A stretch of 64,000 bases of DNA from Vulcanococcus sp. Clear-D1 (GTDB lineage: Bacteria; Cyanobacteriota; Cyanobacteriia; PCC-6307; Cyanobiaceae), in NCBI RefSeq assembly GCF_014654725.1, contig NZ_JACVZV010000036.1:1-64000 (forward strand), in the 5' to 3' direction. Of the stretch, positions 2,180 through 17,483 are shown one piece after another. The notes beneath the pieces were generated by a model. That model was not told where the DNA came from, ran no database searches, and saw nothing but the letters and a program-made list of their open reading frames with translations. Numbering within the stretch: position 1 is the stretch's first letter; every line of letters begins with the position of its first letter. Position numbers and translations under genes: made by a program.

Positions 2180-4500
2180 GAAGACATCGCCTCCGTTTTC
2201 TGGGTCTCCTGCATGACTGAAGACCCTGAACGTTGTGATCGGCCCTGGGCGGCTTCAAGGCGTTCCAAGGCCAGCCAGGCTCCCTCCCCACTGTTTTTAT
2301 GACCCTGCCAGATTTCAGGTATAAATGACGCTTCTGGGGCCAAATCAGCGAGCATTTGAAAAACCTGTGGCCAGTCAATTTCCCCTTCGCCGATTTGCAG
2401 GCCTTCACCATCCACGCCGCCCGCATCGGCAAGATGCAGATGGGCCGTGAATGGTAGAATTTGCTCCAGAAACTCACGGAACGGCATGTGTAGGTGATTG
2501 CAGGCGAGTTTGGAATGTGAAACATCTAGGCACACTCGGTAGCCTTCGTCCTGGCAGAATTCTCGAATAAACGCCGCATCGACAAAAAGGTTGTGGTAGC
2601 GTTGGCCGCCAAAGTGCCATGGGAATGGAGGCATGGTTTGGGGGATAACCTCTACCTCGTCTAAACCCCTGAGTTGATGAAAACTGTCTTTGAGGTTATC
2701 ACGTAGAGGCTTAATTTCTTTGCCGCTTAGGTGTCTATTTTCAGAAAAACCACCCACATTGGTTACCAGCAGAACTCGTCCTTCACAGCGGAAGTAGCTC
2801 TTCAGCTCAGTTGAAATGTTAATTACGCGTTGAAGCTCGGCGATCGAAGTCTGTCGGTACTCTTCGTTGTTGCTGCACAGATCCAGGGTGTGATCGCCAG
2901 CGAACAGTTCGGGCGCATGAACCACTAGTCCAAGCTCGTTTTGTGGCGCCAGCACGCTAGAAAGATTTACATCAAGATCTTTGTAGCTCAAATGTATTTC
3001 AACCAAGTCTATGTTGCTGGCGTGGCTGAAGGCTTTGATATCGTGGTAGCGAACAGGAACTCCAAAAGGTTGACTGAAGTTATAGGCCCTTGGGCTGGCA
3101 ACTGGGCTTTCGAGGTCGGAGGGGAAAAATGGTTCTCCTGGCTTTTTCTCGATTGGCAGCTTCCGTCCCAATAGGTCATGCAGGCGGTACGGCTGTAGAC
3201 CCTGACCTGGGCTCTTGATTCTCACCATCTCTTCAGTGATCTCAGTGCCTGCTGGGATGCTACAGCTAGCCACAAGGCTTTTCGCCAAGACTTCGCGATT
3301 CATCAGCTCGCCTTGGCTAATAGTACGTTCACCACCAGTGCCCATGGATTCGCGCACGCGACGAATTCCCTTCACCATTGCAGTGAATTCACAAGGCAGC
3401 AAGCTCACCTTGTGATCGTTGCCCTCCATGGTGCGGTCAAGTGTGATGTGCTTTTCAATGACCACTGCGCCAAGGGCAGCAGCACCTATTGGTACCTCGA
3501 TCCCTCTTTCGTGACCTGAATAACCAACCGGCGCGCCAGCTAACTCACGCAGCCGCTCCAAATAACGCAAGTTTACGTCTTTAAATGGTGTGGGATAGGT
3601 AGAATTGCAATGCAGCAATACAAATGCCGCGTCGCAATCTCTCAAATGGCGTATGCCTGCGCGGACTTCTTGTTCAGAGGCCATCCCGGTTGAGGCCAGG
3701 AGAGGCTTTCCGGTTGCAGCCATGCTGCTTAACAGGGCATGGTTTGTAAAATCTGCAGACGCCACCTTGAATCCTGGCACTCCCCATGCCTCCAGTTTCG
3801 CCAGGCTTACCTCATCCCAGGCTGTGCAGAGTGGCACTAGGTCTTTCGATGCAGCATGATCGAAGCAGCGGAACAGTTCCTCATCACTTAGTTGAAATCG
3901 TTCCAGAAGATCTAAGGTGTACTGTGTTCCAAGGTCTGAGCTTATATCGTTGCTGTTACCTGCATTGACATACAGTTGTTTCATGTCGCGCATCTGAAAC
4001 TTTGCGCAATCGGCACCGGCCTTGACTGCTTCGTCGATGAGTTGTATCGCTAGATCTACATTGCCATTATGATTGTTGCCGATCTCGGCAATCACAAAGG
4101 TTGGCTCATCTTCTCCTATTCGTCGATTTCCAAGTAGCAAGCTGCGCTCTCCGGCACGAGCAATGGCCACGATCCGGCCATGTCTGTCGAGTAGGGGCAG
4201 GGCGTTGATCTGATCAGAAACCATTCCCCCAAGCACAGTGCTGGTCGTCCCTTCAGGAGCACTTCGGCATGCCGGATTCATGGCGGCGGTAACCGGCTGA
4301 TTGAGGTCAATTTCGCTGCAGGATTCAATCCAGCGACGAAAATCGCCGTCACTCATCACCCCTAGCAGAATTCCCGACTCAGAGACGACAAAGATAAGAC
4401 GCGTTTGGTTGGCCGTGATTTTGCTTAGGGCGGTGAGGATGCTGTCCTCGGCGAACACAACGAACTGAGTAAAGTTTCTGTCGATATGCACTTTTCTCAT
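2176..4500 (-). CDS. neuB: CBS-NeuB-SAF-TIM barrel fusion: nonulosonate (sialic acid-type) synthase
   Basis: This 774-residue protein has four modules. Residues 1-120 are a CBS-domain pair (GVMSDGDFRRWI and a second repeat). Residues about 129-380 are a NeuB aldolase-type barrel, with FVIAEIGNNHNGN, KFQMRD, the GYSGHERG segment and VIEKHITLDR. Residues about 400-465 are a SAF/antifreeze-like domain (IPAGTEITEEMV). Residues about 475-770 are a second TIM barrel of the xylose-isomerase/AP-endonuclease-2 fold (VCLDVSHSKLACNHL, HLHLADAGGVDGEG). NeuB enzymes condense phosphoenolpyruvate with a hexosamine to form a nine-carbon nonulosonic acid. The actual sugar (Neu, Leg, Pse or Kdn type) cannot be decided. 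The extra barrel may epimerise or isomerise the substrate, which is inference. Confidence 0.88.
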   Translation of the reverse strand: MRKVHIDRNFTQFVVFAEDSILTALSKITANQTRLIFVVSESGILLGVMSDGDFRRWIESCSEIDLNQPVTAAMNPACRSAPEGTTSTVLGGMVSDQINALPLLDRHGRIVAIARAGERSLLLGNRRIGEDEPTFVIAEIGNNHNGNVDLAIQLIDEAVKAGADCAKFQMRDMKQLYVNAGNSNDISSDLGTQYTLDLLERFQLSDEELFRCFDHAASKDLVPLCTAWDEVSLAKLEAWGVPGFKVASADFTNHALLSSMAATGKPLLASTGMASEQEVRAGIRHLRDCDAAFVLLHCNSTYPTPFKDVNLRYLERLRELAGAPVGYSGHERGIEVPIGAAALGAVVIEKHITLDRTMEGNDHKVSLLPCEFTAMVKGIRRVRESMGTGGERTISQGELMNREVLAKSLVASCSIPAGTEITEEMVRIKSPGQGLQPYRLHDLLGRKLPIEKKPGEPFFPSDLESPVASPRAYNFSQPFGVPVRYHDIKAFSHASNIDLVEIHLSYKDLDVNLSSVLAPQNELGLVVHAPELFAGDHTLDLCSNNEEYRQTSIAELQRVINISTELKSYFRCEGRVLLVTNVGGFSENRHLSGKEIKPLRDNLKDSFHQLRGLDEVEVIPQTMPPFPWHFGGQRYHNLFVDAAFIREFCQDEGYRVCLDVSHSKLACNHLHMPFREFLEQILPFTAHLHLADAGGVDGEGLQIGEGEIDWPQVFQMLADLAPEASFIPEIWQGHKNSGEGAWLALERLEAAQGRSQRSGSSVMQETQKTEAMSS

Positions 4501-4540: not shown

Positions 4541-5896
4541 CTATCCATTAAAGCGGGGGCTCAAAAGCAGTCCTAGCCGACGTGCTATCCAGTGATTTCG
4601 TCGTAACGCCACTAGCCGCCTCCTAACATTTCGGTGATCCGGGCGAATCAGTTGCGCCAGTTCCAGACTTGCTGCAGCCTCACCGAACTGCCTAGCCCTT
4701 ATCGCTTTCTCGGCACTGTTGCGAAGCTGATTGAAGCTCATGTTGTGTGAGTTCACGACATAGCCGGGTTGCTCTAGATCGATAGGAGCTGACATACTGC
4801 CTTGTCGTTCTTTCCAGTCTTGTATGAACTCCAGAAGCTTGGCTGGTTGATGTGTCTTGCCGTATCCCACCCACTCAAGCCAATAAGGATTGGGCCACTC
4901 CAGCTGTTCTTCTAGGCTATCGAGGTCCGTCAGCTTGTCAAAATAGTGACACACGCTCGAGCCGACAAATACATGGCCTCCTGACCTTGGCAAATTCCCG
5001 AAATCCGCCATCACCACAGGCTTGCAACCATAATCGAGTGCATCGAACAGGGCCGTGGATGACACTGTGGCCATCAAACGTGCTTCTTGCAACACTTCTG
5101 GTAAAGGTCGATAGTCGAGCTGAAGGTTCGTTGGCGGGTGTCCGATGGTCTCCTGAATTGTTTGACTGATGTGCTGATCGTTTCTATGGAAGGTGGCTTC
5201 GTTTGGCGCAATTCTAGGTTTGATTAGTACCTCCCAGTTAGGGGAGCGTCTGGCCAATTCAGCAAGAATGCGGACTAGCTTTTGTCGATCCTTTTGACGA
5301 GATGGAATTACGACCTGCTCGGCAAATACCAGCATCTTTTTACGCTTGTCTGCTGGTAGCAATGGTGTCTTCGTGGCTATATTTCTCTGCATACCAGTTG
5401 TCAGGAATGGCTGAGTCTCGAATGGAGTGTCAGCTAGCATTCGTTTTATTGCTGATGCGTCCCGCGGTCCATTCAGGCAAATGAGGTCGTAGCCAAGCCG
5501 CCAACTGATCGCCTCTTCAAATCCACTGAGCACAATCCCATTAAAGCCGCAAAATAGCATCGGCTTGTAGGAGCCAGGTATTATGCTTACAGCATGGCGA
5601 AAATACGCCAGTTTGCTACCTGTTAAGAATACCCCAATGGCATCAAATCTCATCAGTAATCGGTGGCTCAATAGTTGGCTCAGCCCTAGTTGCCACAGCT
5701 TGCCTAGTGCCCTGGCCCGCTCTAATACGCCATCTGGAGTCCCCTCGCGAGGAATGGCGTTGACTGTGATATTGACTGCTGGTCCATCCTCTGGAAATTG
5801 GGCTATAGCCTCACACGCCAGTAACTGACTGTCGCTGTCGCCCACCAGTAAAAGCTCCAGTGGCGTATTGGTTTTGTTTGGTGCCTCTGTCGTCAC
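4541..5896 (-). CDS. Putative glycosyltransferase, third of three tandem paralogues (DUF6716-like)
   Basis: I start this gene at a GTG whose last bases overlap the upstream stop as GTGA, giving 451 residues. A longer frame runs to 5986 but would overlap the upstream gene by 94 bases. The protein opens with a Rossmann-like strand (LELLLVGDSDSQLLACEAI). It has a GYDLICLNGPRD segment, a middle WEVLIKPRIAP strand, and a C-terminal ATVSSTALFDALDYGCKPVV block. That last block resembles the sugar-nucleotide half of GT-B enzymes. The same blocks recur in the next two genes. About 60 C-terminal residues look like a TPR-type helical pair. I recall similar picocyanobacterial proteins as DUF6716 putative glycosyltransferases. 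No function has been shown to my knowledge. Confidence 0.75.
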   Translation of the reverse strand: MTTEAPNKTNTPLELLLVGDSDSQLLACEAIAQFPEDGPAVNITVNAIPREGTPDGVLERARALGKLWQLGLSQLLSHRLLMRFDAIGVFLTGSKLAYFRHAVSIIPGSYKPMLFCGFNGIVLSGFEEAISWRLGYDLICLNGPRDASAIKRMLADTPFETQPFLTTGMQRNIATKTPLLPADKRKKMLVFAEQVVIPSRQKDRQKLVRILAELARRSPNWEVLIKPRIAPNEATFHRNDQHISQTIQETIGHPPTNLQLDYRPLPEVLQEARLMATVSSTALFDALDYGCKPVVMADFGNLPRSGGHVFVGSSVCHYFDKLTDLDSLEEQLEWPNPYWLEWVGYGKTHQPAKLLEFIQDWKERQGSMSAPIDLEQPGYVVNSHNMSFNQLRNSAEKAIRARQFGEAAASLELAQLIRPDHRNVRRRLVALRRNHWIARRLGLLLSPRFNG

Positions 5897-6972
5897 TGGG
5901 AAGCCTCCGGTTTCGCCCTGGTCCTCAGGGCCTTCACAAGCTGTGAGGCACCATCGTGGACGCCCCAGCCCATCTTCTCCAGCCAATTTGAGTTCACTAT
6001 TGGCATTTCTAATAGGTCATCAAGCGCTGTGATGCTGTCTAGACGGTGCATCACACCAGAGCTGGAGAATGGAACAGACCCATGATCGGTGCGGATGCCA
6101 TGGTCAGCCATCACAACCACGGCGCGCCCCCACGCCATCGCGGTGTAGATCCACGGGGAACTGATGGTGATGCATGCACTACATCGTCCCAACACTATCG
6201 GTAGGTTTCCAGAGGCACCGAAGCTGATATTTGTGGGGAGCTCGGCGAGTACGCGCTGGTCGGCGTTGAGGGGAAGTTGTTTTTCGGACTGCGTGTGATC
6301 GGTTTGAATCAATACTTGCCAGTGTGGAGACGCGCTTGCCTTTTGGCCGAGCAACCTAAGCATCCTCTCTGCGGCTCCTTTCAGTTTTGGCAGACCCTTT
6401 TGCGCTAAGACAACCAGTGTATGTGGAGAATCTGGTTTACCTACACCGACGAGTCCTCCGGTCTCTGGTGCCTCGGGCATAAACCAGAACCCGATTGCGA
6501 CTGTCGGTACCGGATTGGGCCAGCGATGCATCAGGTCATGAGCCTCTTCTAGCTGTCTTTCACCATGCAAGCAGAGCAGGTCGCAACACATGCGTGGCAG
6601 CAAATCCTCGATGAGTGTGTCACCAGCCAACGGAAATACCGGACCGCTGAACACAGGCGCTGGTCGCTGAGCATTTAGTTGACAGATCTGTCGATAGTTC
6701 GTCACAAATGTCTCAACGTTGCTAGCTCGTATGAAAACTCCGATAGCCGTGGCCTTGAGAATCAACGATGAGAGGAGCAGCTCGTTTATTGAGCAGTTCA
6801 ATTGTGCCACTCTGCCATTCCCTGCTGGATTCTCAGGAAGCGGTGAAACCAGACTCGAGATTCTTTCTGTTGTCACTACCAGACAATCCAAATGTTCTTG
6901 GGCCAGTTCATTGGCTAGTAGTGTGCAGGCATAGGCACCTAGATTAGAGTCGGCAAGTAGAATTATGCTCAT
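5893..6972 (-). CDS. Putative glycosyltransferase, second of three tandem paralogues (DUF6716-like)
   Basis: The 359-residue protein begins MSIILLADSNLGAYACTLL and keeps the block order of its neighbours: AIGVFIRASNVETF, CCDLLCLHGERQ, WQVLIQTDH, then ACITISSPWIYTAMAWGRAV and NSNWLEKMGWG. It is the shortest of the three and lacks the C-terminal helical extension. The ATG overlaps the upstream stop as ATGA and its own stop overlaps the next GTG, so all three copies are translationally coupled. The blocks fit a GT-B fold acting on a nucleotide sugar, probably CMP-activated given the adjacent neuA-like gene. The family call comes from pattern, not from a search. Confidence 0.73.
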   Translation of the reverse strand: MSIILLADSNLGAYACTLLANELAQEHLDCLVVTTERISSLVSPLPENPAGNGRVAQLNCSINELLLSSLILKATAIGVFIRASNVETFVTNYRQICQLNAQRPAPVFSGPVFPLAGDTLIEDLLPRMCCDLLCLHGERQLEEAHDLMHRWPNPVPTVAIGFWFMPEAPETGGLVGVGKPDSPHTLVVLAQKGLPKLKGAAERMLRLLGQKASASPHWQVLIQTDHTQSEKQLPLNADQRVLAELPTNISFGASGNLPIVLGRCSACITISSPWIYTAMAWGRAVVVMADHGIRTDHGSVPFSSSGVMHRLDSITALDDLLEMPIVNSNWLEKMGWGVHDGASQLVKALRTRAKPEASQ

Positions 6973-8264
6973 CGGCCTCGTACTACCTTCTCAATCCAAC
7001 CCATGCCAATAATGAAATCGCGGAGTTGTCTAATCAAGCTGCGGGTGCGGTTTCGCTTGCGCTGAGCTGAGCGTACGCCGCCACTTGCAAGCATACTTAT
7101 ACCACCGTTAGCAAGCGCAAACTCCTGCCAATCCCGGCTACCCCAGCCCGCTAGCTCGATTGCATTGTCATTCAGTTCGTTGTCCCGAGAGGTTAGTGAG
7201 GTGCGCAACGCAGTCAAAAATTGATTCTTCCCGTTTGGTTGATAGCCATGGTGCTCTAGCCAGGTTGAATCATGTCGTATTGAAAAGGGATCAGAGCAGA
7301 TTGACTCGAATTCCGCGAGCGCCCCAGAGGCGATGAAATAGTGATTGCCTAGAGTTTCATTGAGTCCGAGATCTGTCACGATTCTTGTGCTGATGCCCAT
7401 TGCCATGGCCTCAAGCGCTGCGGTTGACGATATAGTAATTGCGCAGCTGCACTTTCTTAGCAGATGAGCCGCCGGCTTGAAGCTGATAGTGAGGTTTTCT
7501 GTTTTCTTTGAAAGTCTTTTTATCCCTCGTGTCATCTCGCCGTGATGGCGATGTAATGTTCGTTCAAGGCCCGATATTCGAGGTTTGAAAATGATTTGAT
7601 GTTCGGGCCAGTGATTGGCTAGTCTTTCGAGTTGCTGGCATAAATACCGCCTTTGGAGAGGATTCGAGGGCACTGAAGGCTGCTCAAAAAACACTAGAGA
7701 ACCCCTTTCTATTGATTGTGTTCGAGGATGAAGGTTCCACAGTATCGGGAGTCCAGTTATAACTGCATTGCTGCTATCTAAATTGAGTCCTTGGCATCCC
7801 TTGGCATAGGTCTCGAAGTCGTTCGGGGTGTTAAGGCACAGCAAGTCCACGCCCGCGCGATCCAGCATGCCCTCCAGCTGGTGGCGAAAGAGGATTCCTG
7901 GGTAAGCGCTTACGAGCAAGGGGCGTTTGGGATGTTCGTTCCATAGCCTTTTCAATAGTAACAACGTATCTCGACTTCGCTTGCCATCTAGAGCTAGAAT
8001 GACTGCGTCGCTACTATCTAGTTTGTTTTCAAGTAGCATCTGCCGCCCATTCCAAGGGTGGCGTGTAATTTTTGTCTTGGGATCAACCCTCTGAATTTCT
8101 ACTCGCTGGCGACGGGAAATTGTTCGACCGTCCACATCCAGTAAAATTAAGTACGTATCAGCCCCGGCATTGCGGCATGCCGCGAGCATGCTCATACCTG
8201 TTTTCCCAAAGGAATCGAAACATGCCAACGCAATGATCCTGCGACCGTTGAGGGATGCGCTCAT
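6969..8264 (-). CDS. Putative glycosyltransferase, first of three tandem paralogues (DUF6716-like)
   Basis: The 431-residue product starts IIALACFDSFGKTGMSML. It shares with the next two genes the blocks AVILALDGKRSRDTLL, GVDLLCLNTPNDF, HQIIFKPRISG, CAITISSTAALEAMAMG and STWLEHHGYQ. The C-terminus is basic (QRKRNRTRSL) with a short amphipathic tail, which could bring it to the membrane. It follows the CMP-nonulosonate synthetase with an ATGA overlap. The most likely role is transfer of a sugar onto a growing surface polysaccharide. The substrate is unknown. Confidence 0.75.
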   Translation of the reverse strand: MSASLNGRRIIALACFDSFGKTGMSMLAACRNAGADTYLILLDVDGRTISRRQRVEIQRVDPKTKITRHPWNGRQMLLENKLDSSDAVILALDGKRSRDTLLLLKRLWNEHPKRPLLVSAYPGILFRHQLEGMLDRAGVDLLCLNTPNDFETYAKGCQGLNLDSSNAVITGLPILWNLHPRTQSIERGSLVFFEQPSVPSNPLQRRYLCQQLERLANHWPEHQIIFKPRISGLERTLHRHHGEMTRGIKRLSKKTENLTISFKPAAHLLRKCSCAITISSTAALEAMAMGISTRIVTDLGLNETLGNHYFIASGALAEFESICSDPFSIRHDSTWLEHHGYQPNGKNQFLTALRTSLTSRDNELNDNAIELAGWGSRDWQEFALANGGISMLASGGVRSAQRKRNRTRSLIRQLRDFIIGMGWIEKVVRGR

Positions 8265-8947
8265 GTTGGTTGGTCAAATAACGCTGCCGCTTGATCGCAA
8301 ATTGTCAGATCGTATGGCGTATCGATCTCAGGGTGCCAACCATCGATAGGTACTGGTAGCCGTGGAGCAACAAAGCGATGCCCCGCTTCGACGAAGGGCT
8401 CGGTGCGAATCGCGTAAATAGCGCCTGTCTCCAGCCAGCAGGGGGGAAGGTCTTGACGCCTTGGGCGAGGGGCATCGGCGTTGTGATTAACCCCGATGCC
8501 CCAGCCCTCTTCGCTAGCACTCCATAGAAATCCATGCCATGGTGAGGCTGAGAAGGCCATAGCTGCACCGGATTCCTGAAGCCGCTCCACCACCAGGTCG
8601 ATCTCACGCCCCCGGGTGAACGGTGATGTGCACTGCAGAAATACAAAAACCTCTGGTCTTAAGCCTTCGGAGGCCAGCACGTCGAGGGCATGGATCAGAG
8701 CTGATTCAGAACTGGCAGTGTCGCCTGCTATGTCGGGTGGTCGTTGAATAGTACGTGCCCCCTCAGCTTGTGCCAGCGCCAGTAGTTCGGGTGAATCACT
8801 GCTTACATAAGTGCGCTGTATTTTCTCGGAAGACTGTGCAGCTTGAATGGTTCTTGCTAGGAGCGGGATATTTCCAACTGTTCGCAGGTTTTTGTTTGGA
8901 ATACCCTTGGATCCGCCGCGTGCCGGAATCAATGAAATGATTGACAT
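8261..8947 (-). CDS. neuA: Acylneuraminate (nonulosonate) cytidylyltransferase
   Basis: The 228-residue protein opens with ISLIPARGGSKGIPNKNLR, the nucleotide-binding motif of CMP-sialic acid synthetases. It continues with YVSSDSPELLALAQAEGA, VFLQCTSPFTRG and DGWHPEIDTPYDLTICDQA near the C-terminus. It activates a nonulosonic acid with CTP to CMP-sugar. It is the first gene of the minus-strand operon and precedes three putative glycosyltransferases and the NeuB-type synthase, so activation, transfer and synthesis are encoded together. Sialic, legionaminic, pseudaminic and Kdn enzymes share these motifs, so the exact sugar is open. Kdo cytidylyltransferase is less likely given the NeuB partner. 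Confidence 0.88.
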   Translation of the reverse strand: MSIISLIPARGGSKGIPNKNLRTVGNIPLLARTIQAAQSSEKIQRTYVSSDSPELLALAQAEGARTIQRPPDIAGDTASSESALIHALDVLASEGLRPEVFVFLQCTSPFTRGREIDLVVERLQESGAAMAFSASPWHGFLWSASEEGWGIGVNHNADAPRPRRQDLPPCWLETGAIYAIRTEPFVEAGHRFVAPRLPVPIDGWHPEIDTPYDLTICDQAAALFDQPT

Positions 8948-9134
8948 GGCTCTATACGATTGAACCTACGGCGAATGAGAACCTCGGTCATCTTAGGGTG
9001 GCTCGGCCCCTGCGTATGGCTATACCTTTTTACTGTAGCGGACCAGCCTCTTTGTGTCAACGGTTGCTTCTGGGCTTCATCCTCTCAAGTAATTTTGCGC
9101 ATGTAGGCTTTGGTTGGTACAGGGAGATTGGGCT
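8948..9134. promoter_or_regulatory. Divergent promoter region between the nonulosonate operon and kpsC
   Basis: This 187-base gap separates the divergent neuA-like and kpsC genes, so promoters for both transcription units should lie here. The sequence has short A+T-rich patches (around 9020 to 9040 and 9085 to 9100) but no box I can assign with confidence. A Shine-Dalgarno-like AGGGAG at 9121-9126 precedes the GTG chosen for kpsC. Confidence 0.45.
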
Positions 9135-11264
9135 GTGTCGGTGCTGAGTCAGGCCCAGTTAGTTGGATGCCCGGATCGTCTGCTTTTAACCCACTCCACG
9201 ATTGCGTCACTATTGGCCCCCGCCAAGGTGGTTGCGGGTCGTCGTCGGTGTGTGAGGGAGCCAATCCACGCTCTTGTGGCCTGGGGCCGCCGACCCAGTG
9301 GTCGTTTCGCTGAAGTCCTGAGCCAAAGACGCTCCCTGCCGCTATGGCGCCTTGAGGACGCTTTTCTGCGTTCCATGGATGCAGGTTCCGGAATCCCACC
9401 TTTAGGGATCGTCCTCGACGACTTGGGTATTCATTACGATGCAACTCGGATTAGTCGACTGGAGCTCTTGATATCAGCCGGCGTCAGTGATGAACAACGC
9501 CAGCGAGCTGAGAGCTTAGCCAGTAGCTGGCGTCAGCATCGCCTGAGCAAGACCAACGCCTCTGCTGAATCACCTCCTCCGGACACCCCGTTTGTCCTGG
9601 TTGTCGATCAAGTAGCCGACGACGCTTCGATCCGCTTTGGCTTCGCGGATGCATCTGCCTTTCCCCGGATGCTGGACGCTGCACTTGCTGAATTTCCTAA
9701 TCACACAGTGGTGGTTAAGATCCATCCAGATGTTGTGAATGGGCGCCGGCATGGCCACTTTAATGCCATCTATTTGGAGCATCCTCGGGTAAGACTCTGT
9801 GTAGATGGAGGGCACCCGGCGGCGCTTTTGGAGGCCGCTGATGCGGTGTATGTTGTTACCTCACAGATGGGATTTGAGGCTCTGCTTTGGCAGCGACCTG
9901 TGCGCACATTCGGGATGCCGTTCTATGCCGGGTGGGGCCTAACTGTGGATGACCTCGAATCACAATGTATTGGACGCCGTGATGCTAAGCCTGATTTGCC
10001 AGCTTTAGTCCATTCCTGTCTTGTCTCCTATTCCCGTTATTTGCATCCTGTCACCAACCAAGTCTGCACACCTGAGCAGCTCATCGAGCACATCGTGCTT
10101 CAGCGTAATTGTAGAGCGCGTCTTCCACGCAATCTGGAGGTGTTCGGTACTGCACCTTGGAAGCGCCGAGCTGCACGCCAATATCTATTGGCTCTCAAGC
10201 CTGCGAAGCTACACTTTCGGCCTCTGGATGCCGCACCCGGAAGACAATCTGATCTTCGCCAGTTGGTTTGGGGACATCGCATTGGCCGGGGTCTACGGCG
10301 GGCTATGGCAGGAGGGATCGTACCTGAACCCATTCGAGTGGAGGATGGCTTTCTCCGTTCCGTTGGACAAGGCTGGGTTCTTCGCTGGGTGCCGCCAGTG
10401 TCTTGGGTGTTTGACGAGCAGGGTATTTATTATGACGCCTCAAAGTCAAGTGACTTGGAATGTTTTCTGGCCAGCCATCGCTTCACGGTTGAGGAACGTC
10501 AGCGGGCTGCCGCCTTACGCCGGCATTTGGTTACCTTGGGCCTCACAAAATACAATCTTAATGCACCGGCCTGGCAGCGGCCTGCCGCATTGCTTAATCG
10601 GCCTGTGCTGTTAGTGGCCGGCCAAGTCGAGTCTGATCTCTCGATCCGCTATGGCACACCCCCAGATGCCTGCATACGTAGTAATTTAGAATTGCTTCAG
10701 GCTGTGCGGTCTCTTTATCCAAAAGCTTTTTTGATCTACAAGCCTCACCCCGACGTGGTTGCTGGTCGTAGACGTCCAGGGAAAGGGGAAGGCCTGACCC
10801 ATTTACATTGCGATCTGGTGTTGCCCGATGCTCCTATTGATCAATTAATTTCTGCAGTTGATGAGGTACATGTTCGCACCTCCGGAACCGGGTTTGAGGC
10901 CATACTTCGCGGCGTCCCTGTGCATACTTGGGGTATGCCGTTCTACGCCGGATGGGGTCTTACCTCGGATCAATTCATCTGCACGCGCAGGGGGCGCTCC
11001 TTAAGCCTCGACGAGTTGGTTTATGGCGCTCTCATTTACTATCCTCGCTACTTTAGTCAGCGTTCCGGGTGTTTTATCACAGCTGAACAGGCTGTTGAAG
11101 AACTGGCAATGCAGCGCCGTCATCGTCACCGTTGGCCAGGCTCTCGGTCGATTCTGGCGTCAACCCTCTTCGCGACTTCCCCTCGTGTGCAATTTGCGGG
11201 TGCCCAGCTTGCAGCGCGGTTCAAGGATGCATTGGATGGCATCCTTCCTGACTCTCTAGTTTAA
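9135..11264 (+). CDS. kpsC: Capsule polysaccharide Kdo transferase KpsC (duplicated glycosyltransferase)
   Basis: The product is about 709 residues, close to E. coli KpsC, and contains two related halves. Each half has an FLRS...G...VDxGIYYDA-type segment (LDDLGIHYDATR and FDEQGIYYDASK), a KxHPDVVxGRR motif (VVKIHPDVVNGRR and IYKPHPDVVAGRR), and a near-identical FGMPFYAGWGLT/WGMPFYAGWGLT block followed by R-rich residues. KpsC proteins build the short poly-Kdo linker on a lyso-phospholipid that anchors group 2 type capsules. I chose the GTG at 9135 because AGGGAG lies 8 bases upstream. A TTG at 9114 is the other option. The gene is followed after 26 bases by the KpsS-like fusion. Confidence 0.9.
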   Translation: MSVLSQAQLVGCPDRLLLTHSTIASLLAPAKVVAGRRRCVREPIHALVAWGRRPSGRFAEVLSQRRSLPLWRLEDAFLRSMDAGSGIPPLGIVLDDLGIHYDATRISRLELLISAGVSDEQRQRAESLASSWRQHRLSKTNASAESPPPDTPFVLVVDQVADDASIRFGFADASAFPRMLDAALAEFPNHTVVVKIHPDVVNGRRHGHFNAIYLEHPRVRLCVDGGHPAALLEAADAVYVVTSQMGFEALLWQRPVRTFGMPFYAGWGLTVDDLESQCIGRRDAKPDLPALVHSCLVSYSRYLHPVTNQVCTPEQLIEHIVLQRNCRARLPRNLEVFGTAPWKRRAARQYLLALKPAKLHFRPLDAAPGRQSDLRQLVWGHRIGRGLRRAMAGGIVPEPIRVEDGFLRSVGQGWVLRWVPPVSWVFDEQGIYYDASKSSDLECFLASHRFTVEERQRAAALRRHLVTLGLTKYNLNAPAWQRPAALLNRPVLLVAGQVESDLSIRYGTPPDACIRSNLELLQAVRSLYPKAFLIYKPHPDVVAGRRRPGKGEGLTHLHCDLVLPDAPIDQLISAVDEVHVRTSGTGFEAILRGVPVHTWGMPFYAGWGLTSDQFICTRRGRSLSLDELVYGALIYYPRYFSQRSGCFITAEQAVEELAMQRRHRHRWPGSRSILASTLFATSPRVQFAGAQLAARFKDALDGILPDSLV

Positions 11265-11290: not shown

Positions 11291-13333
11291 TTGAATTCCA
11301 GTCGGCATCCAATGACCCCATCCGTCCAAGTCGAAATCAAGGGACCTGTCCTGCTTCTCATGGGTCCAATTGGTCTTTTCTTTTCTCGCTTTTATAACTA
11401 CTTGACGCGTTGTGGTATCCCAGTGCGTAAAGTCGAATTCCCCTTGCATGAATTTGGCTTTCCTCGTCACGCCCGTGTGCGTTTCTCTGGAGATATGGAT
11501 GAGTGGCGACCCTTTTTGCGTGATTTGCTTCTCAAGCATGAGATACGTCATGTTTTTATGTATGGTGACTTCATTATTCCTCACCGCATTGCCATCGAGG
11601 AATCGCGGGCTGTTGGTGTTGAAGCCTGGGTGTTTGAGCTTGGCTATATACGACCAAATTACGTTACTTTGGAGCGTGATCGCGTCAACGCGCGTTCACA
11701 CCTTAACCAATCTGCCGGCTTTTATCATTCTCTTCCTCTGGTCAGTAGTCTTCCGTCATGCCGTTTAGATTCAGGTTTGCGGTGGCGAAAGATATGGAAA
11801 GTGCCTACATTTATTCAGCATGCTTTCACGCGATACCGGATTATAGAGGGTGACCATAAGTTGCAGCCGTCTCCACGCTTCCTTTGGTACCAGTTGCGTG
11901 GCAGTTGGCTCTATTGGCTCTATCGGCTTCGGGAAAGGCGAATCAAGGATAGACTTCTCGAGAGCTATTCGTTTTTTCTGGCTATTCTCCAGGTCTCAAG
12001 TGACAGCCAGATTCAGATGGGCTCCCGTTATCGAGGCATGCATGACTTTATCGAAGAGGTGATTTGTTCTTTCGCTGCTAATGCTCACGCTTCTGATCAT
12101 CTGGCATTTAAGCATCACCCGCGGGACAGAGGTTACAACAACTATTCTTCGCTCATCTCTCTTTTGGCTCGCCGTTATGGTATTTCCGGCCGCGTGCATT
12201 ACTTCCATGATGGTCATCTGAGTCGTTTCTTGCGCGTCTGCCGTGGTGTAGTTACTGTTAACAGTACCGTGGGTCTCCAGTCTCTCTACCATGCTGTTCC
12301 CACAAAGGTTATGGGCCACTCTTTCTATAACCTACCCGGCCTAACTGACCAGCAACCTCTGCACCAATTCTGGGCTTCTCCCCAGTCTAGTGATCGTGCA
12401 CTTTTCTACCGCTTTTACTCCCACTTGATCACCACGACACAGGTTAATGGCAACTTTGATGGTGCATTCCCGTTCCGCAGTACATTTCCCATTGCAGCTG
12501 ATGCGAACCGCTTTACCCTCCCTTCTGCCTGTTCAACCGATTTAACTTGGGATAGCCGCATCCTTACAACACTAGCTGTAATTCCCAGAATCGTATCCAG
12601 GCTTTGCTGGATTCTTTGTTCGCTGTCGATTTATAGCCTACAGCTGTTACTCCTTTCACTCGGGTCTCGTAGATTCGCTTCTTGGATGCTGTCTATCGCA
12701 TCGGCAGCTGCGCTGAGAGCCCTTGGTATCAAAGTTGTTGTTGATGACAGTCATTCCAGTGAGCAGGAAGGTATTCCCCTTGTTCATATCTGGAACCATG
12801 CAAGTCCGATTGATGTCTTGGTCGTGCAGGGAGTATTGAGGATTCCTAGCATCACCACGGCCAACCTACATTTAAGCCATCTTCTGCCCTGGTTTGCTAA
12901 GTCGGCTGCAAATGCGGGACATACTTTGATGGATCATCGTGATAGAGCATCCCGCATCGCAGCACTCTACTCAGCATCTCGCACTCTTGCTGAGAGTGGC
13001 CAAATTATTATTGCTCCTAATGGCTCTCTGGTTACTCCGATCGAAGAGAGAGTGTCGGCCAGTGCTTTGCTCCTAGCGCGCCGTCACGGTGCTTTGATTG
13101 TACCTTGGACGTTTGTGGTGGAGGGACTTACCAACCTTGCCCGCCTCAACTACCGGCCCCTTCGGCTTGTTTTGTCACGCCTAAGTGCACCTTTGGGATT
13201 CATTTATTGTCGTAGAGGACGGTCTAAGGACTTGCTCTTGCCGGAAGGTATCTGCGATGCTCGACAGTTCAAGATCTCCGTGCAGTCTTATTATGCTCAG
13301 CAAGCCGATCCTAGTACCAAAGAAATGTTGTGA
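11291..13333 (+). CDS. kpsS: KpsS-like Kdo transferase fused to a PlsC-type acyltransferase domain
   Basis: The 680-residue protein starts at a TTG with a perfect AAGGAG (11279-11284) six bases upstream. Residues 1 to about 400 resemble KpsS: GPVLLLMGPIGLFFSRF, YGDFIIPHRIAIEESR, WVFELGYIRPNYVTLERD, FKHHPRDRGYNN and VVTVNSTVGLQS. After a hydrophobic stretch (about 435-475), residues about 485-650 resemble a glycerolipid acyltransferase. This part has IWNHASPIDVLV with the NHx4D pair H503 and D508, and IIIAPNGSLV where PlsC enzymes have a PEGT-type motif. It then has GALIVPWTFV. KpsS adds the first Kdo to lyso-phosphatidylglycerol, so a fused acyltransferase suggests processing of the lipid anchor. 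The 3' end overlaps the convergent ketosynthase gene by 37 bases. Confidence 0.85.
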   Translation: MNSSRHPMTPSVQVEIKGPVLLLMGPIGLFFSRFYNYLTRCGIPVRKVEFPLHEFGFPRHARVRFSGDMDEWRPFLRDLLLKHEIRHVFMYGDFIIPHRIAIEESRAVGVEAWVFELGYIRPNYVTLERDRVNARSHLNQSAGFYHSLPLVSSLPSCRLDSGLRWRKIWKVPTFIQHAFTRYRIIEGDHKLQPSPRFLWYQLRGSWLYWLYRLRERRIKDRLLESYSFFLAILQVSSDSQIQMGSRYRGMHDFIEEVICSFAANAHASDHLAFKHHPRDRGYNNYSSLISLLARRYGISGRVHYFHDGHLSRFLRVCRGVVTVNSTVGLQSLYHAVPTKVMGHSFYNLPGLTDQQPLHQFWASPQSSDRALFYRFYSHLITTTQVNGNFDGAFPFRSTFPIAADANRFTLPSACSTDLTWDSRILTTLAVIPRIVSRLCWILCSLSIYSLQLLLLSLGSRRFASWMLSIASAAALRALGIKVVVDDSHSSEQEGIPLVHIWNHASPIDVLVVQGVLRIPSITTANLHLSHLLPWFAKSAANAGHTLMDHRDRASRIAALYSASRTLAESGQIIIAPNGSLVTPIEERVSASALLLARRHGALIVPWTFVVEGLTNLARLNYRPLRLVLSRLSAPLGFIYCRRGRSKDLLLPEGICDARQFKISVQSYYAQQADPSTKEML

Positions 13334-14574
13334 CCACCGAAGCCAAAGGCGTTCTTCAGAGCAAATCGTTGACCGTTATCGCCAGTGCTTGAATTGCCAT
13401 CAATCGCAACATTCTGTTGTGCTACGTTCAGTCTCACCTCAGGATCTATTCTCTCGGCGTTAATACTGGCTGGTATTTTCCCTTCTCTTAAAGCCTGAAT
13501 CGCGAGGATTGTTTCTACAGCACCTGCCGCGCCAAGTAGGTGACCGAGCTGGCTCTTTGGAGCAGTAACTGGCAGGCTATCTAAAGCTGGTCCCAGTGCT
13601 CGGTGGAGTGCACGCGCCTCTGCAAGATCTCCCAATCGAGTCCCTGTGGCATGACCTTGGATAAAGCTGAGATCTTTTGCGCTAACCTCAGCCCTCTCCA
13701 ATGCATCGTTTATAGCTCGACTTGCCTGGACACCATCGGGATCTGGCGCCACCATTTGGTACCCATCACAACTGCTTCCGCAAGACAGCAGCCACCCCAA
13801 GGGCTTTTCTTTGTAAGCTAAATCTCGTTCACGTTTAAGTACTAGTACGCCTGCTCCTTCCGAGAGCACAAAGCCATCGCGATCTTTGCAATAAGGCCTC
13901 GAAGCTTGTTCGGGTGTTTCGTTTCGAGTGGATAGTGCCCGCATGGCCGAAAACCCCACTAATCCCAGTCGATTGACCGGAGCTTCACACCCTCCAGCAA
14001 TCACCACATCGGCACGGTCGTCGTCAAGCAGCCACTGAGCAAGGAGTAAGGCTTCTGCTCCAGAAGCGCAAGCTGATACCGGCGTATGGCAACCGCCGTG
14101 GATCCCCAGCTCAATCGCAATCTGCCCGGCAGCAGCGTTTGGGATCATCATCGGCACTGTTAAGGGGGTCACTCTGCTCGGACCTGCATCATTTAGGTTC
14201 GTGTGTTGACGCTCTAAGGTTGACAGGCCGCCGATGCCGGTACCGATTACCACAGCTATTCGACTACGATCAACGTTGTTGAGGTAGTTTCTTGCTTGGC
14301 CCCATGCCTCACGAGCTGCGAGCACCGCCAGTTGTGTAGCTCGATCAAGACGTCGTTGAAGCAGTGGCTCAAGCAAATTTTCTCCACTATCGCTTGGATA
14401 CCTGTGCACTCTCCCCGCAATTCGGGTAGGAAGATCATTGGCCCAAGACTCCCCAATCGCCCGAATCCCACATTGTCCATTGACCAATGCGATCCACGTT
14501 TCCTGAGCTGTAGCCCCAAGAGGCGTCAATGCACCCCAGCCGATAACTGCTAGACGATTAGTTGGCTTAGTCAT
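13297..14574 (-). CDS. Beta-ketoacyl-ACP synthase (FabF/KAS II type), island copy
   Basis: The 425-residue protein has the complete Cys-His-His triad of elongating ketosynthases: C169 in VSACASGAEA, H308 in QGHATGTRLGD and H345 in KSQLGHLLGAAGA. It ends with the family FGFGGHN motif. I start at the ATG at 14574, which overlaps the stop of the acyl carrier protein gene by eight bases. The longer frame adds residues that no FabF has. The enzyme condenses malonyl-ACP with acyl-ACP. Its coupling to its own ACP and to an OlsB-like acyltransferase suggests a dedicated acyl chain, not housekeeping fatty acid synthesis. The general fabF is expected elsewhere in the genome. Confidence 0.87.
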   Translation of the reverse strand: MTKPTNRLAVIGWGALTPLGATAQETWIALVNGQCGIRAIGESWANDLPTRIAGRVHRYPSDSGENLLEPLLQRRLDRATQLAVLAAREAWGQARNYLNNVDRSRIAVVIGTGIGGLSTLERQHTNLNDAGPSRVTPLTVPMMIPNAAAGQIAIELGIHGGCHTPVSACASGAEALLLAQWLLDDDRADVVIAGGCEAPVNRLGLVGFSAMRALSTRNETPEQASRPYCKDRDGFVLSEGAGVLVLKRERDLAYKEKPLGWLLSCGSSCDGYQMVAPDPDGVQASRAINDALERAEVSAKDLSFIQGHATGTRLGDLAEARALHRALGPALDSLPVTAPKSQLGHLLGAAGAVETILAIQALREGKIPASINAERIDPEVRLNVAQQNVAIDGNSSTGDNGQRFALKNAFGFGGHNISLVLGSAC

Positions 14575-14911
14575 CCAGAGAAGTATGGGAACTGAGATAC
14601 ATCTCAATATCTTCAACTGTTTTGAACCTTAGCAAGTCTTCTTCTGGAATCCTGGTGTGCAGGTGCTCATCTGCTTCGATTAGGATTTCATAAAATCCTA
14701 GTGAGTCAATGCCAATATCCTCTAATAGCCTTGATTCCGGCCTTATCAGGCTCGGTTCAGCGCCGGAGACTCTCGCTACGATTTCAACGATTTGATGATA
14801 TAGCTCTGAATCGATCTCTTTTTCGCTTATATCTGATTGCCGATGGAGGCTTGTGGGTGTTTTGCTCCCCCTGCCTTCGCAACCCGGCTCCCGACGTGGA
14901 ACTTCATCCAT
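14567..14911 (-). CDS. Dedicated acyl carrier protein
   Basis: The fold matches an acyl carrier protein: an acidic helix (ELYHQIVEIVARVSG), the phosphopantetheine site DIGIDSLGF with serine near residue 70, and a C-terminal helix pair ending VEDIEMYLSS. The ATG at 14911 gives 114 residues with an unusual N-terminal extension of about 30. No good internal start is visible, so the true N-terminus is uncertain. The gene lies between the OlsB-like acyltransferase gene (27 bases upstream) and the ketosynthase (overlapping). It is unlikely to be the housekeeping AcpP because of the extended N-terminus and this context. Confidence 0.85.
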   Translation of the reverse strand: MDEVPRREPGCEGRGSKTPTSLHRQSDISEKEIDSELYHQIVEIVARVSGAEPSLIRPESRLLEDIGIDSLGFYEILIEADEHLHTRIPEEDLLRFKTVEDIEMYLSSHTSLDD

Positions 14912-14938
14912 CTGGCCTTGCCTACTTATTTTTTTATT

Positions 14939-15967
14939 CTAGCATTGGCCTGCCCCAGTATCCAGGCCTCGGTACCATTCGAACTTCTTGTACACGGCAT
15001 GGTGCTTAAAGCCCGTGAAGTGCTGCAAGCGAGTTGTCGGGATTCGCGTCAGATCTGCCGACATCAAGATTTCCGTGATTTGATTGAAGTCAAGCGCTAG
15101 CGATAGATTCTCTACCCTTGCCCCCATCAAATTGATATACTGACGCAGGAGAATGGGTAGTCTGAAGTGTGAATCTAGTTTTACCTGAATCTGCTTTTCT
15201 AGATCTTGTATTGTGCTGGTGTATTCTAATTCATTGCTATATCTTATTCCAGTGTGCGGATGGCGAGGCTGCGGCCGCGATTTGTTGTTCTCGGCAAAGG
15301 GTGGACGAATAAGTCTGCTTAGAAAAGAGTTGTTCACGGCGTCGCTGTAAGCGAAATGGTTGTATGAGACAAGTCCGTGGATTGAAGTGTATCCTGAGCT
15401 GAGTGCTACCTGAAGGCCGCCGCGAAATAGGCACATCAGTGTGTGAGGTAAGCGTTGAAAGCGCGGCGCTAGAGCTACTCGGCCGATTTCCAGATTGTTT
15501 CCGCGTTTGGTCAGCTTCGCCTTGATTCCGGGGTACACGTGTTCTAGGTACGACTGATGGCTTGTAGGGATAAATCTGGTTCCATCCTGCTGTCGCTCCG
15601 GCTGTTGGGGGATAAACTGAAGTCGAGCACATCCGGCAATCTCTCCCGAGGACCTCTCCACTAACAGGAAATGATCGTAGTATGCGTCTCGGCTATCTAA
15701 GTCGTGGCTTCGCCCTGAACCAGAGAGTTGCTGGCGATAGGTCAGTTCCCGAAGAATCCCCACCGCCTCCTCAAACTTTTTGAAGCGATTGCCGGGAACT
15801 AGGTAGAGGTCTAGCCCATGCGAGGTAAACAGGCCGTAATCCGCCAGGTACCGGTTGAGTTCGGTGGACAGAGCCTGCGGGACGGCGATCGACCGACCCC
15901 TTTCTTCGTTGGCCTTCACGGCTTTGACGCGCTGTGACCAAAGACTAACGTGGGGCCTATGGCTCAT
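14939..15967 (-). CDS. GNAT-fold N-acyltransferase, OlsB/COG3176-like
   Basis: The 342-residue protein has DHFLLVERSSGEIAGCARLQ and NLEIGRVALAPRFQRL, which correspond to the core strands of acyl-ACP-dependent GNAT acyltransferases such as OlsB. Its end (LPILLRQYINLMGARV followed by LALDFNQITEILMSADL) matches the PPLIKAYLRLGA...DFN...L pattern of that family. OlsB-type enzymes acylate the alpha-amino group of an amino acid using acyl-ACP, and the next gene encodes an ACP. PEP-CTERM-associated acyltransferases are a related alternative. The ATG at 15967 leaves only 35 bases to the divergent export gene, so the true start may lie further in. Confidence 0.75.
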   Translation of the reverse strand: MSHRPHVSLWSQRVKAVKANEERGRSIAVPQALSTELNRYLADYGLFTSHGLDLYLVPGNRFKKFEEAVGILRELTYRQQLSGSGRSHDLDSRDAYYDHFLLVERSSGEIAGCARLQFIPQQPERQQDGTRFIPTSHQSYLEHVYPGIKAKLTKRGNNLEIGRVALAPRFQRLPHTLMCLFRGGLQVALSSGYTSIHGLVSYNHFAYSDAVNNSFLSRLIRPPFAENNKSRPQPRHPHTGIRYSNELEYTSTIQDLEKQIQVKLDSHFRLPILLRQYINLMGARVENLSLALDFNQITEILMSADLTRIPTTRLQHFTGFKHHAVYKKFEWYRGLDTGAGQC

Positions 15968-16002
15968 CCGGGCTCTAGCCCTCCTGCCTGCGTTTTTCAG
16001 TC

Positions 16003-17181
16003 ATGCCACAGGTCCGTTGTCTGTCTTACTGTCTCGCGATGGCCTTCCTGTCAGCGCCGGCTCTTCCCCTTGGAGCTGTTGCTCAAGAGCCTGCGTTGGG
16101 ACAATCACCGGTCTCACTCACCCACGAGCCCGGATCGCCTGAAAGGAGTCCTTCTTTTCCTGCTTCAACCTCTGGTGCTCAGACGTCCCCTGGTCGTACC
16201 TTTCGCTACCGGCTGGGTCCTGGCGATCGCTTGCGCATGTCGGTGTTTAAGGTCGAGGGCTACGCAGCCGATGTAGAAGTACTCAGCGACGGTACCATTA
16301 GCCTTCCACGACTCAATTCTGTTTCTGTAGCAGGTCTTACTCTTGATGATGCTCAGCGTCGGATCAGCCAGTTGTACACAATTTACCTGCGCAGACCGTT
16401 AGTCTATCTAGATCTACTGGTGCCTCGCCCGGTTCGTGTAACGGTGGTAGGCGAAGTTCAGAAGCCTGGCTTCTATAGTATTTCCCAGGGTTCTCGTGAG
16501 TCCAGCCTGGGTACCGTGGCCGCGGCCCAAACCAGTGTTGATAGCTCTGGCTGGCCAACTCTCGTTGATGCGATTCAGCGAGCTGGCGGCATTACTGGCA
16601 CGGCCGATCTTTCGAGAGTGCGGCTTGTTCGGTCGTCAAATCCATCGCTCTTAAAACGTCAAGTCTATAATTATGATTTTCTTTCGACTCTTATGGGTAT
16701 GGGGTCTTCGCCAAACCCTTTGATCCAAGATGGTGACACTATTGAGGTGGCCAAGATTGAAGGTGTGATCCCAAGCGACGTGCTTATACGGACAGGAAAG
16801 TCGAACCTTTCTGCTGATGCTATAGCAGTTACTGTGGTAGGCGAAGTTAACGCGCCGGGCTTGAAGCAGATCAGGCTTAATAGTTCCTTGACTGATGCGG
16901 TGATGGCTGCTGGTGACCTTAATCAGTTGCGTGCTGATCCTAATTTTATTCGACTTTTGCGTATGCAGGGTGATGGTAGTGTCGTTTCTCTTCGGCTCAG
17001 CTTGGATCCTGCAGCACCGCTGGGCTCGCGTAATAACCCTGTTCTTCAAAATGGTGACGTTATTGTTGTCGCGCGAAACGGATGGACATCCCTGAATCAG
17101 CGTCTTGTCCAGGCGGTTGAGCCCCTTGGTCCTTTGTTAAATGCTGCATCTCTCTATAACATTCTCACAAAGGGTCCGTGA
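16003..17181 (+). CDS. Polysaccharide export outer-membrane protein (Wza-like, SLBB domains)
   Basis: The 392-residue protein begins with a signal peptide (CLSYCLAMAFLSAPALPL then AVAQ). The polysaccharide-export domain follows (YRLGPGDRLRMSVFKVEGY, DGTISLPRLNSVSVAGLTL), then two SLBB repeats (VTVVGEVQKPGFYSIS and VTVVGEVNAPGLKQI). Such proteins form the outer-membrane exit for capsular or extracellular polysaccharides. It is the last gene of the island before core genes and is divergent from the OlsB-like gene. The N-terminus lacks a clear lipobox cysteine, unlike enterobacterial Wza. The partner co-polymerase or ABC transporter is not in this window. Confidence 0.9.
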   Translation: MPQVRCLSYCLAMAFLSAPALPLGAVAQEPALGQSPVSLTHEPGSPERSPSFPASTSGAQTSPGRTFRYRLGPGDRLRMSVFKVEGYAADVEVLSDGTISLPRLNSVSVAGLTLDDAQRRISQLYTIYLRRPLVYLDLLVPRPVRVTVVGEVQKPGFYSISQGSRESSLGTVAAAQTSVDSSGWPTLVDAIQRAGGITGTADLSRVRLVRSSNPSLLKRQVYNYDFLSTLMGMGSSPNPLIQDGDTIEVAKIEGVIPSDVLIRTGKSNLSADAIAVTVVGEVNAPGLKQIRLNSSLTDAVMAAGDLNQLRADPNFIRLLRMQGDGSVVSLRLSLDPAAPLGSRNNPVLQNGDVIVVARNGWTSLNQRLVQAVEPLGPLLNAASLYNILTKGP

Positions 17182-17483
17182 TTGCATTTTTCTCCATCTT
17201 TCTTCCTGACCCTTTTCTATTAGCTAACGGTTCTCGTCGGTTTCGGTCTGGCGATTCGGTGTATCAGGCATGCTGTTAGATAGTGCCTGGGTTCTGTCTG
17301 TGTTACTGCTTCCTTCGCCTTGTTCGCTAAATTGTACTTTTAGCCCCATAGTGCTCTTCTGGGTTGCTTGGTGTGTCTCGCTTATTCGGTGAGACTTGAT
17401 TGTTGGCTTCATGTTTCTTATTTCTTTTACTCCGTTGCTCGGTCCGATGATCCGCTAGCAAGGTGTTCTCGCAGGGAGCTAGC
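17182..17483. other. A+T-rich border stretch between island and core genes
   Basis: No supported gene lies in these 300 bases. The base composition stays like that of the island up to about 17.45 kb and then rises sharply at rlmH. I see no tRNA, integrase or clear terminator here. It looks like degenerate spacer at the right border of the island. Confidence 0.5.

Follow-up and report, generated by a model that had tools for sequence, protein, structure and literature searches.

The window, by which we mean the whole 64,000-nucleotide stretch of Vulcanococcus sp. Clear-D1 DNA analyzed here, contains a capsule cluster in which three reverse-strand genes encode a GNAT N-acyltransferase, an acyl carrier protein (ACP) and a ketosynthase (KAS). 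The coupling of these genes proposed in the initial annotation was borne out: the open reading frames match PF13444, PF00550 and PF00109/PF02801, respectively, with a 27-nt gap between GNAT and ACP and an overlap between the ACP stop and an ATG of the KAS. Their placement between kpsC/kpsS and a Wza-like exporter also held. On one side lie, on the forward strand, a KpsC-like two-domain Kdo transferase (9114-11264; PF05159 in four stretches; 39% identity across 653 residues with KpsC from an E. coli plasmid) and a fusion of KpsS to a PlsC-like domain (11291-13333), and on the other a forward-strand Poly_export (Wza/KpsD-like) outer-membrane export protein (16003-17181; PF02563 and SLBB domains). 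Promoter and terminator scans gave signals at chance level only.

The GNAT (14939-15967, reverse strand) is an OlsB/OlsF-like N-acyltransferase of 342 aa, matching PF13444 at 43.9 bits (E = 4e-11), above the cut-off of 22.4. Its top NCBIfam model was OlsF (51 bits, residues 49-317), which was also the best match for all eight other GNATs scanned, with scores of at most 56 bits across the nine. The window protein falls below every NCBIfam cut-off (51 bits against 620 for the bifunctional OlsF and 20 against 300 for GlsB, with OlsB cut-offs at 320-350); a single GNAT half can hardly reach the OlsF cut-off, because that model spans both halves in 570 positions. A 14-row GNAT profile aligned to the C-terminal halves of two OlsF-like proteins by hhalign with a probability of 99.6 over 269 columns. 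The GNAT belongs to the same superfamily as the FeeM- and LuxI-type synthases; PDB sequence searches, whether by the GNAT alone or by its profile, yielded no significant hit and matched no FeeM or AHL-synthase structure. An AlphaFold model built from three sequences had a pLDDT of 44, too poor for fold comparison. Relatives beyond the Cyanobacteria were sought by scanning genome contigs with a single GNAT and by searching plasmids; the former recovered two loci only, both picocyanobacterial, and the latter 11 records at 24-34% identity, four of which are annotated as lysophospholipid acyltransferase.

The KAS (13297-14616, reverse strand; PF00109, E = 4e-47; PF02801, E = 3e-30) most likely starts at the ATG at 14574 and not at the TTG at 14616, because this ATG overlaps the ACP stop (ATGACTAA). 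Its earlier description as an intact KAS II stands at the level of the subfamily, as Cys183 and both histidine motifs (HATGT and GFGGHN) are intact and the score with NF005589 (421 bits) exceeds the cut-off of 387, but the FabF equivalog TIGR03150 was missed (419 bits against 494). The ACP (14567-14911, reverse strand; PF00550, E = 1.5e-10) is 114 aa long from its first ATG, and no further ATG, GTG or TTG precedes the core. Judged by this single start codon, the N-terminal extension that had been called unusual is real in the window, but it is not a conserved feature, as homologues may be as short as 84 aa and this segment cannot be aligned among them. The D-S-L motif is invariant in 33 of 33 ACPs, the window protein keeping its serine, and the AcpP model TIGR00517 scored 38 bits, short of its cut-off of 70. 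A separate housekeeping AcpP-FabF pair is encoded elsewhere in the genome (contig C27, 5144-6602), and the module KAS and ACP are distinct from it, with 35-40% identity for the KAS. In a KAS tree whose root row was a remote third KAS of the same genome, ten host FabF proteins and three actinobacterial KAS grouped together (100/99) with no module copies among them, and the reading of ordinary FAS II duplicates was rejected. Together with the co-occurrence described below, this separate pair supports grouping the module with the capsule locus rather than with general fatty-acid synthesis.

The fusion protein combines a KpsS-like Kdo transferase (~20-389; PF05159, E = 5.8e-54), whose motifs are common to an E. 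coli KpsS, with a PlsC-like acyltransferase (~440-680; PF01553, E = 3.7e-7) carrying NHASPID and PNGS motifs. It reached 288.8 bits with the curated KpsS model NF050054, against a cut-off of 600. The PlsC motifs (NHx4D) are retained in 30 of 34 full-length fusions. Where they are missing, an intact stand-alone PlsC adjoins at three of the four loci (Fisher p = 0.003, kinship ignored); at L139 (genome G443) the fused PlsC is degenerate and no replacement PlsC was found within the 18 kb read. Where PlsC has its PEGTR-type motif III, the fusions have P-N/S-G-S-L, without its Glu and Arg; the equivalent in two OlsF-like N-termini, identified by eye, is FPAGEV. Among 101 plasmid records that matched the fusion, none covered 80% of it.

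In a family survey of 251 genomes, GNAT and KpsS were each present in 35 and occurred together in 34 of the 36 genomes having either; in the two genomes with only one of them, the contig stops at that point. The two genes were carried by an identical 31 of the 167 good genomes and, in a draw across the phylum, by an identical 11 of 386, with one extra genome matching the PlsC part only, and weakly. KpsS adjoins the GNAT or the module on the same contig at 34 of 36 GNAT loci, and the module is tied to capsule genes and not conserved away from them. The statistics are not adjusted for kinship between the genomes. ACP and KAS accompany 33 of the 36 GNATs; because the other three loci do without them, they are not a strict requirement, and GNAT with KpsS-PlsC forms the core pair. 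Branches in the GNAT tree are very long, and the tree does not separate loss of ACP-KAS at these three loci from never having had it. The description of the module as self-contained is not supported as it stands, given these three loci; its KAS alone would also need host reductases and a dehydratase.

The sugar part of the cluster, all on the reverse strand, comprises a NeuB-like synthase with CBS, SAF and TIM-barrel parts (2176-4500; PF03102, E = 1e-75), three DUF6716 putative glycosyltransferases (4541-8264; PF20471) and a CMP-nonulosonate-synthetase-like gene (8261-8947; PF02348; best NCBIfam match PseF, under cut-off). The GNAT might decorate the polysaccharide, attaching a short or 3-hydroxyacyl group supplied through the dedicated ACP and KAS to the nitrogen of an amino sugar or of a nonulosonic acid in the capsule. 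Unusual N-acyl groups are common on nonulosonic acids, DUF6716 genes lie near KpsC at 28 of 28 canonical loci, and the cluster-type NeuB was found in all 26 canonical genomes searched (67-76% identity in the 25 other than our own), sharing a contig with the GNAT in 24. However, six divergent genomes with no NeuB match above 37% and no DUF6716 gene in the flanks read still have GNAT and KpsS, the closest GNAT families use amino acids and long chains, and what is conserved along with the GNAT is an acyltransferase of the PlsC type, joined to the enzyme that works on the lipid acceptor. We therefore regard decoration as unlikely. The sugar genes change between lineages while GNAT, KpsS and KpsC stay constant, which favors a role at the lipid or linker end. 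KdsA, which serves Kdo synthesis, is above cut-off in this genome (contig C27, 14524-15297) and in 34 of 35 KpsS genomes, compared with 75 of 216 others; its presence in those 75 KpsS-less genomes indicates that Kdo has other uses. A candidate KpsM-like ABC exporter is encoded outside the window (contig C33, 5845-6597); it is 33% identical to the ABC-2 protein of locus L031, a level that other ABC-2 exporters could also reach.

Taken together, the data are best read as a locus that synthesizes or modifies the lipid end of a capsule linked through Kdo. It is moderately probable that the three genes form the lipid branch of a Kdo-linked capsule pathway resembling group 2/3, providing a purpose-made (N-)acylated lipid anchor. 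Alongside the observed gene content, intact motifs, linkage, co-occurrence and behavior of the PlsC domain, we infer the reactions, the amine acceptor and the use of the lipid as capsule anchor as follows. The dedicated ACP would receive an acyl chain, which the dedicated KAS would lengthen with the help of the reductases and dehydratase of host fatty-acid synthesis; the GNAT would transfer this ACP-borne chain to an amine on a small acceptor. Through its PlsC domain, the fusion would add a further, ester-linked acyl chain, and its KpsS domain would place the first Kdo on the completed lipid, with KpsC then extending it. The capsule would thus be built on a purpose-made (N-)acylated lipid, replacing or accompanying phosphatidylglycerol of the E. 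coli type. The terminus is plausibly an N-acyl amino lipid and not plain phosphatidylglycerol. More tentatively, the anchor could be an acyloxyacyl amino-acid lipid, similar to ornithine or glycine lipids and made on site, with KpsS-PlsC both completing the lipid and starting the sugar linker and the private ACP-KAS setting the chain. The special lipid of the initial annotation is favored in position, by the KpsS-PlsC fusion and the turnover of sugar genes, but its nature is not supported as stated.

An ordinary (lyso)phosphatidylglycerol acceptor is similarly improbable. In this case, the PlsC domain would set acylation for KpsS through chains of the dedicated ACP and the GNAT would perform a side reaction, such as synthesis of a separate membrane aminolipid. 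E. coli KpsS acts on (lyso-)phosphatidylglycerol (PMC7694667, in the part available), and the top NCBIfam match of the PlsC domain is a 1-acylglycerol-3-phosphate acyltransferase domain, weak at 21.8 bits against 103; nevertheless, the GNAT is tied to KpsS as tightly as the PlsC domain is, and the motif III region departs from PEGTR as described above. It is very unlikely that the GNAT and ACP merely travel with the capsule genes and make a diffusible signal or N-acyl amino acid of the FeeM or LuxI type, despite the superfamily noted above and the binding of an ACP by N-acyl amino acid synthases such as FeeM (the title of a work cited in PMC11631085), as the GNAT is tightly linked to KpsS and its PlsC partner and matched none of the corresponding structures by sequence or profile.

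The small planktonic cyanobacteria with this locus may therefore carry a special fatty anchor on their capsule and, if the acyloxyacyl amino-acid lipid reading is true, the anchor would be chemically unlike phosphatidylglycerol. To our knowledge, the origin of the lipid that receives Kdo from KpsS in E. coli is still unsettled; here, the fusion and the near-perfect co-occurrence tie lipid acyltransfer to KpsS and make the step directly testable. Kps-like capsule genes of marine Synechococcus vary with nutrient regime (PMC10119275, in excerpt). An anchor that took less phospholipid to make would therefore matter for how these cells economize on phosphorus. The kps cluster itself has already been reported in marine Synechococcus (PMC10119275 and PMC7522525, both in excerpt), but among the papers listed in literature searches none described the acyl module, proposed as a candidate for an undescribed pathway, or a KpsS-PlsC fusion, although supplementary files may mention them.

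Several known systems resemble parts of this locus. The PEP-CTERM/exosortase acyltransferase model TIGR03694, named for cell-surface sorting, has weak similarity to the GNAT, but the score of 17.5 bits falls far below its cut-off (112), and this identity was rejected. The capsule ACP RkpF operates with RkpA/RkpG-type partner enzymes. Like the dedicated rhizobial ACPs, RkpF for capsule and AcpXL for lipid A (PMC9386255, in excerpt), the window ACP appears dedicated to a surface polymer or lipid, but its partners are the GNAT and KpsS-PlsC. The OlsF/OlsBA ornithine lipid and GlsB glycine lipid synthases likewise pair a PF13444 GNAT with a PlsC-superfamily O-acyltransferase, and they place a 3-hydroxyacyl chain on the nitrogen of an amino acid; here, the family cut-offs are missed and the GNAT is split from the acyltransferase, which sits on a Kdo transferase. 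PF19576 corresponds to the OlsF N-terminus and PF01553 to OlsA/PlsC (PMC11631085, in excerpt); the window fusion matches PF01553 and not PF19576, whereas two OlsF-like plasmid proteins match both. The overall resemblance to ABC-dependent group 2/3 Kps systems lies in the KpsC (39%) and KpsS (~37%) homologues, compared with E. coli plasmid copies, and in the KdsA and Poly_export proteins of the genome, along with the candidate KpsM-like protein. The difference is that KpsS is fused here to a PlsC-like domain, tied to a GNAT and usually accompanied by its own ACP and KAS.

The three genes of the acyl module lie on the minus strand, with the GNAT N-acyltransferase gene (14939-15967; PF13444) separated by a 27-base gap from the ACP gene (14567-14911), whose product keeps the DSL serine, and with the likely start ATG of the KAS ketosynthase gene (13297-14616; Cys and two His motifs kept) overlapping the ACP stop codon (ATGACTAA). 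The placement described in the initial annotation, between kps genes and a Wza-like exporter, was borne out: the module is flanked on the GNAT side by a Poly_export gene (16003-17181) and on the other by a KpsS-like Kdo transferase fused to a PlsC-like acyltransferase (KpsS-PlsC, 11291-13333), followed by the second Kdo transferase, KpsC (9114-11264). Both kps genes are convergent with the module, and the ends of KpsS-PlsC and KAS overlap by 37 bases. Left of KpsC lie three tandem DUF6716 glycosyltransferase-like genes (4541-8264), whose products are possibly nonulosonate transferases, a CMP-sugar-synthetase-like gene, two sulfotransferase genes and a NeuB-like fusion (2176-4500) that joins CBS, SAF and xylose-isomerase-like TIM barrel domains in a single chain and scores below both the NeuB and PseI equivalog cut-offs. 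The window opens contig C36 of a 2.96 Mb genome at base 1, so that the capsule locus lacks its left end; at that position a relative (L085) carries GT61 and GT2/GT7-like genes, a response regulator and a histidine kinase. Cyanobium and Synechococcus records were the closest named relatives within the searches run.

Among 251 Cyanobiaceae genomes, GNAT was found in 35 and KpsS-PlsC in 35, with both in 34. One discordant genome (G534) has a contig that begins within KAS (locus L142) and the other (G493) a contig that stops within KpsS (L144). The same 31 of 167 good genomes carry both genes, as do the same 11 of 386 genomes drawn from the phylum, all 11 of them Cyanobiaceae; one further genome in this draw matched the PlsC part alone, weakly. 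Fisher's test on the 251 genomes gave p near 1e-39, a descriptive value that ignores close kinship. The neighbourhoods of 36 GNAT loci were read, from the 35 genomes and a metagenome-assembled Synechococcus (L020), leaving out L152 as a duplicate of L019. The linkage noted in the window recurred: KpsS was on the GNAT contig in 34/36 loci (L157 via tblastn), the remaining two contigs ending there, and ACP and KAS adjoin GNAT in 33/36, with the KAS of L142 cut by the contig end. No ACP-KAS pair was found beside GNAT in G023, G553 and G600 (locus only for the latter two), and KAS and ACP searches of G023 returned housekeeping copies alone. Given these three loci, the constant core is GNAT and KpsS-PlsC (with KpsC); the ACP-KAS pair is a specialisation found in many loci, with gain and loss both compatible with the trees. 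KpsC of L157, L158 and L160 runs opposite to KpsS-PlsC and shares 61-63% identity with the window KpsC, versus 52-53% for L139, L145 and L154; this looks like replacement or inversion. A defence-like TIR and nSTAND protein with a WD40 match (12277-14565 in L136) is encoded in the same stretch as kps genes.

The module is distinct from general fatty-acid synthesis, as proposed initially: a housekeeping AcpP-FabF pair lies apart from it (C27:5144-6602), the window KAS and ACP fall below the FabF and AcpP equivalog cut-offs, and the window KAS is 64-69% identical to five other module copies versus 35-40% to FabF of ten genomes. In a 29-row KAS tree, no module copy falls among the ten FabF and three actinobacterial KAS, which together make up one supported side (100/99); there are two label changes instead of one because the root falls on the last host row, a remote third KAS from the window's own genome.

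The C-terminal half of OlsF was the best curated match of the window GNAT and of all eight other GNATs scanned. Aligning a 14-row GNAT profile with the C-termini of two OlsF-like proteins gave 99.6% probability over 269 columns; these plasmid-encoded proteins are so named from domains and not by a curated cut-off. Since the window GNAT lies below all curated NCBIfam cut-offs, we class it from sequence as OlsB/OlsF-like and not as a family member. Aminolipids are made by OlsB/GlsB with an O-acyltransferase according to a review (PMC11631085) whose main text held no mention of cyanobacteria or Synechococcus.

GNAT is ~55-70% identical to the window protein in 28 canonical loci and ~30-39% in eight divergent ones. 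DUF6716 is near KpsC in 28/28 canonical loci; cluster-type NeuB (67-76% identity) was found in all 25 other canonical genomes searched and, counting the window's genome, is on the GNAT contig in 24/26. Cluster-type NeuB was found in none of six divergent genomes searched (best 37%, elsewhere in the genome), and neither DUF6716 nor NeuA matched in their KpsC flanks (~3 to 4 kb in four, ~1 kb in L143, more in L031); G023 has a NeuA-like gene (39%) ~30 kb off. GNAT and KpsC are retained in these six genomes, as is a KpsS whose end derives from PlsC, though in G443 that end is degenerate. Genes retained while the sugar genes change should serve the unchanging part of the molecule, its lipid and Kdo linker. 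KdsA exceeded its cut-off in 34/35 KpsS genomes versus 75/216 others. LPS of Synechococcus WH8102 and CC9311 is reported to lack Kdo (PMC4515613), which would leave Kdo free for a capsule linker, though KdsA is not confined to KpsS genomes. KpsM-like ABC-2 proteins, often far from the cluster, occurred in 24/24 cluster genomes searched, including the query source G023 (31-60% identity outside it); two genomes without the cluster gave one weak match and none.

Among 36 KpsS rows, 34 were full-length, two being cut by contig ends. The fused PlsC keeps NHx4D and P-N/S-G-S in 30/34 and has lost both in four (L139, L154, L155, L156). An extra stand-alone PlsC gene with both motifs is present in four loci (L023, L154, L155, L156), three of them with a degenerate fusion (Fisher p 0.003), which looks as if a still-needed activity had been replaced in trans. 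Against this, L139 (genome G443) has a degenerate domain and no replacement within the 18 kb read. In L139 a cytochrome P450 domain protein (14936-17242) adjoins KpsC. The usual PlsC motif III is PEGTR; that of the fused domain is P-N/S-G-S-L, and the two OlsF-like proteins have FPAGEV at a place that seems equivalent by eye. The altered motif is a faint hint that the acceptor is not lysophosphatidate.

What was observed is the order of the genes, their motifs and co-occurrence, the replacement of PlsC in three loci and the change of sugar genes. In the mechanism proposed, ACP-KAS and host enzymes would produce a particular acyl chain, GNAT would transfer it to an amine, the PlsC domain would attach a second chain, and KpsS would attach Kdo for KpsC to extend. 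We lean towards the module making or remodeling the lipid terminus of the capsule; that this terminus is an amino-acid lipid is a tentative and less probable proposal.

The literature searched, excluding supplements and most subscription papers, yielded no account of a KpsS-PlsC fusion with a GNAT-ACP-KAS module. PMC4594306 describes KpsS/KpsC as confined in distribution and reads this as a hint that in cyanobacterial EPS a poly-Kdo linker is missing or Kdo is attached in another way. Kps clusters themselves are known in marine Synechococcus, with two gene groups that most resemble E. coli genes described in PMC10119275, which may or may not correspond to the window's locus; the apparently new part is the acyl module with the KpsS-PlsC fusion. 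Precedents for specialised ACPs are RkpF in capsule and AcpXL in lipid A synthesis (PMC9386255).
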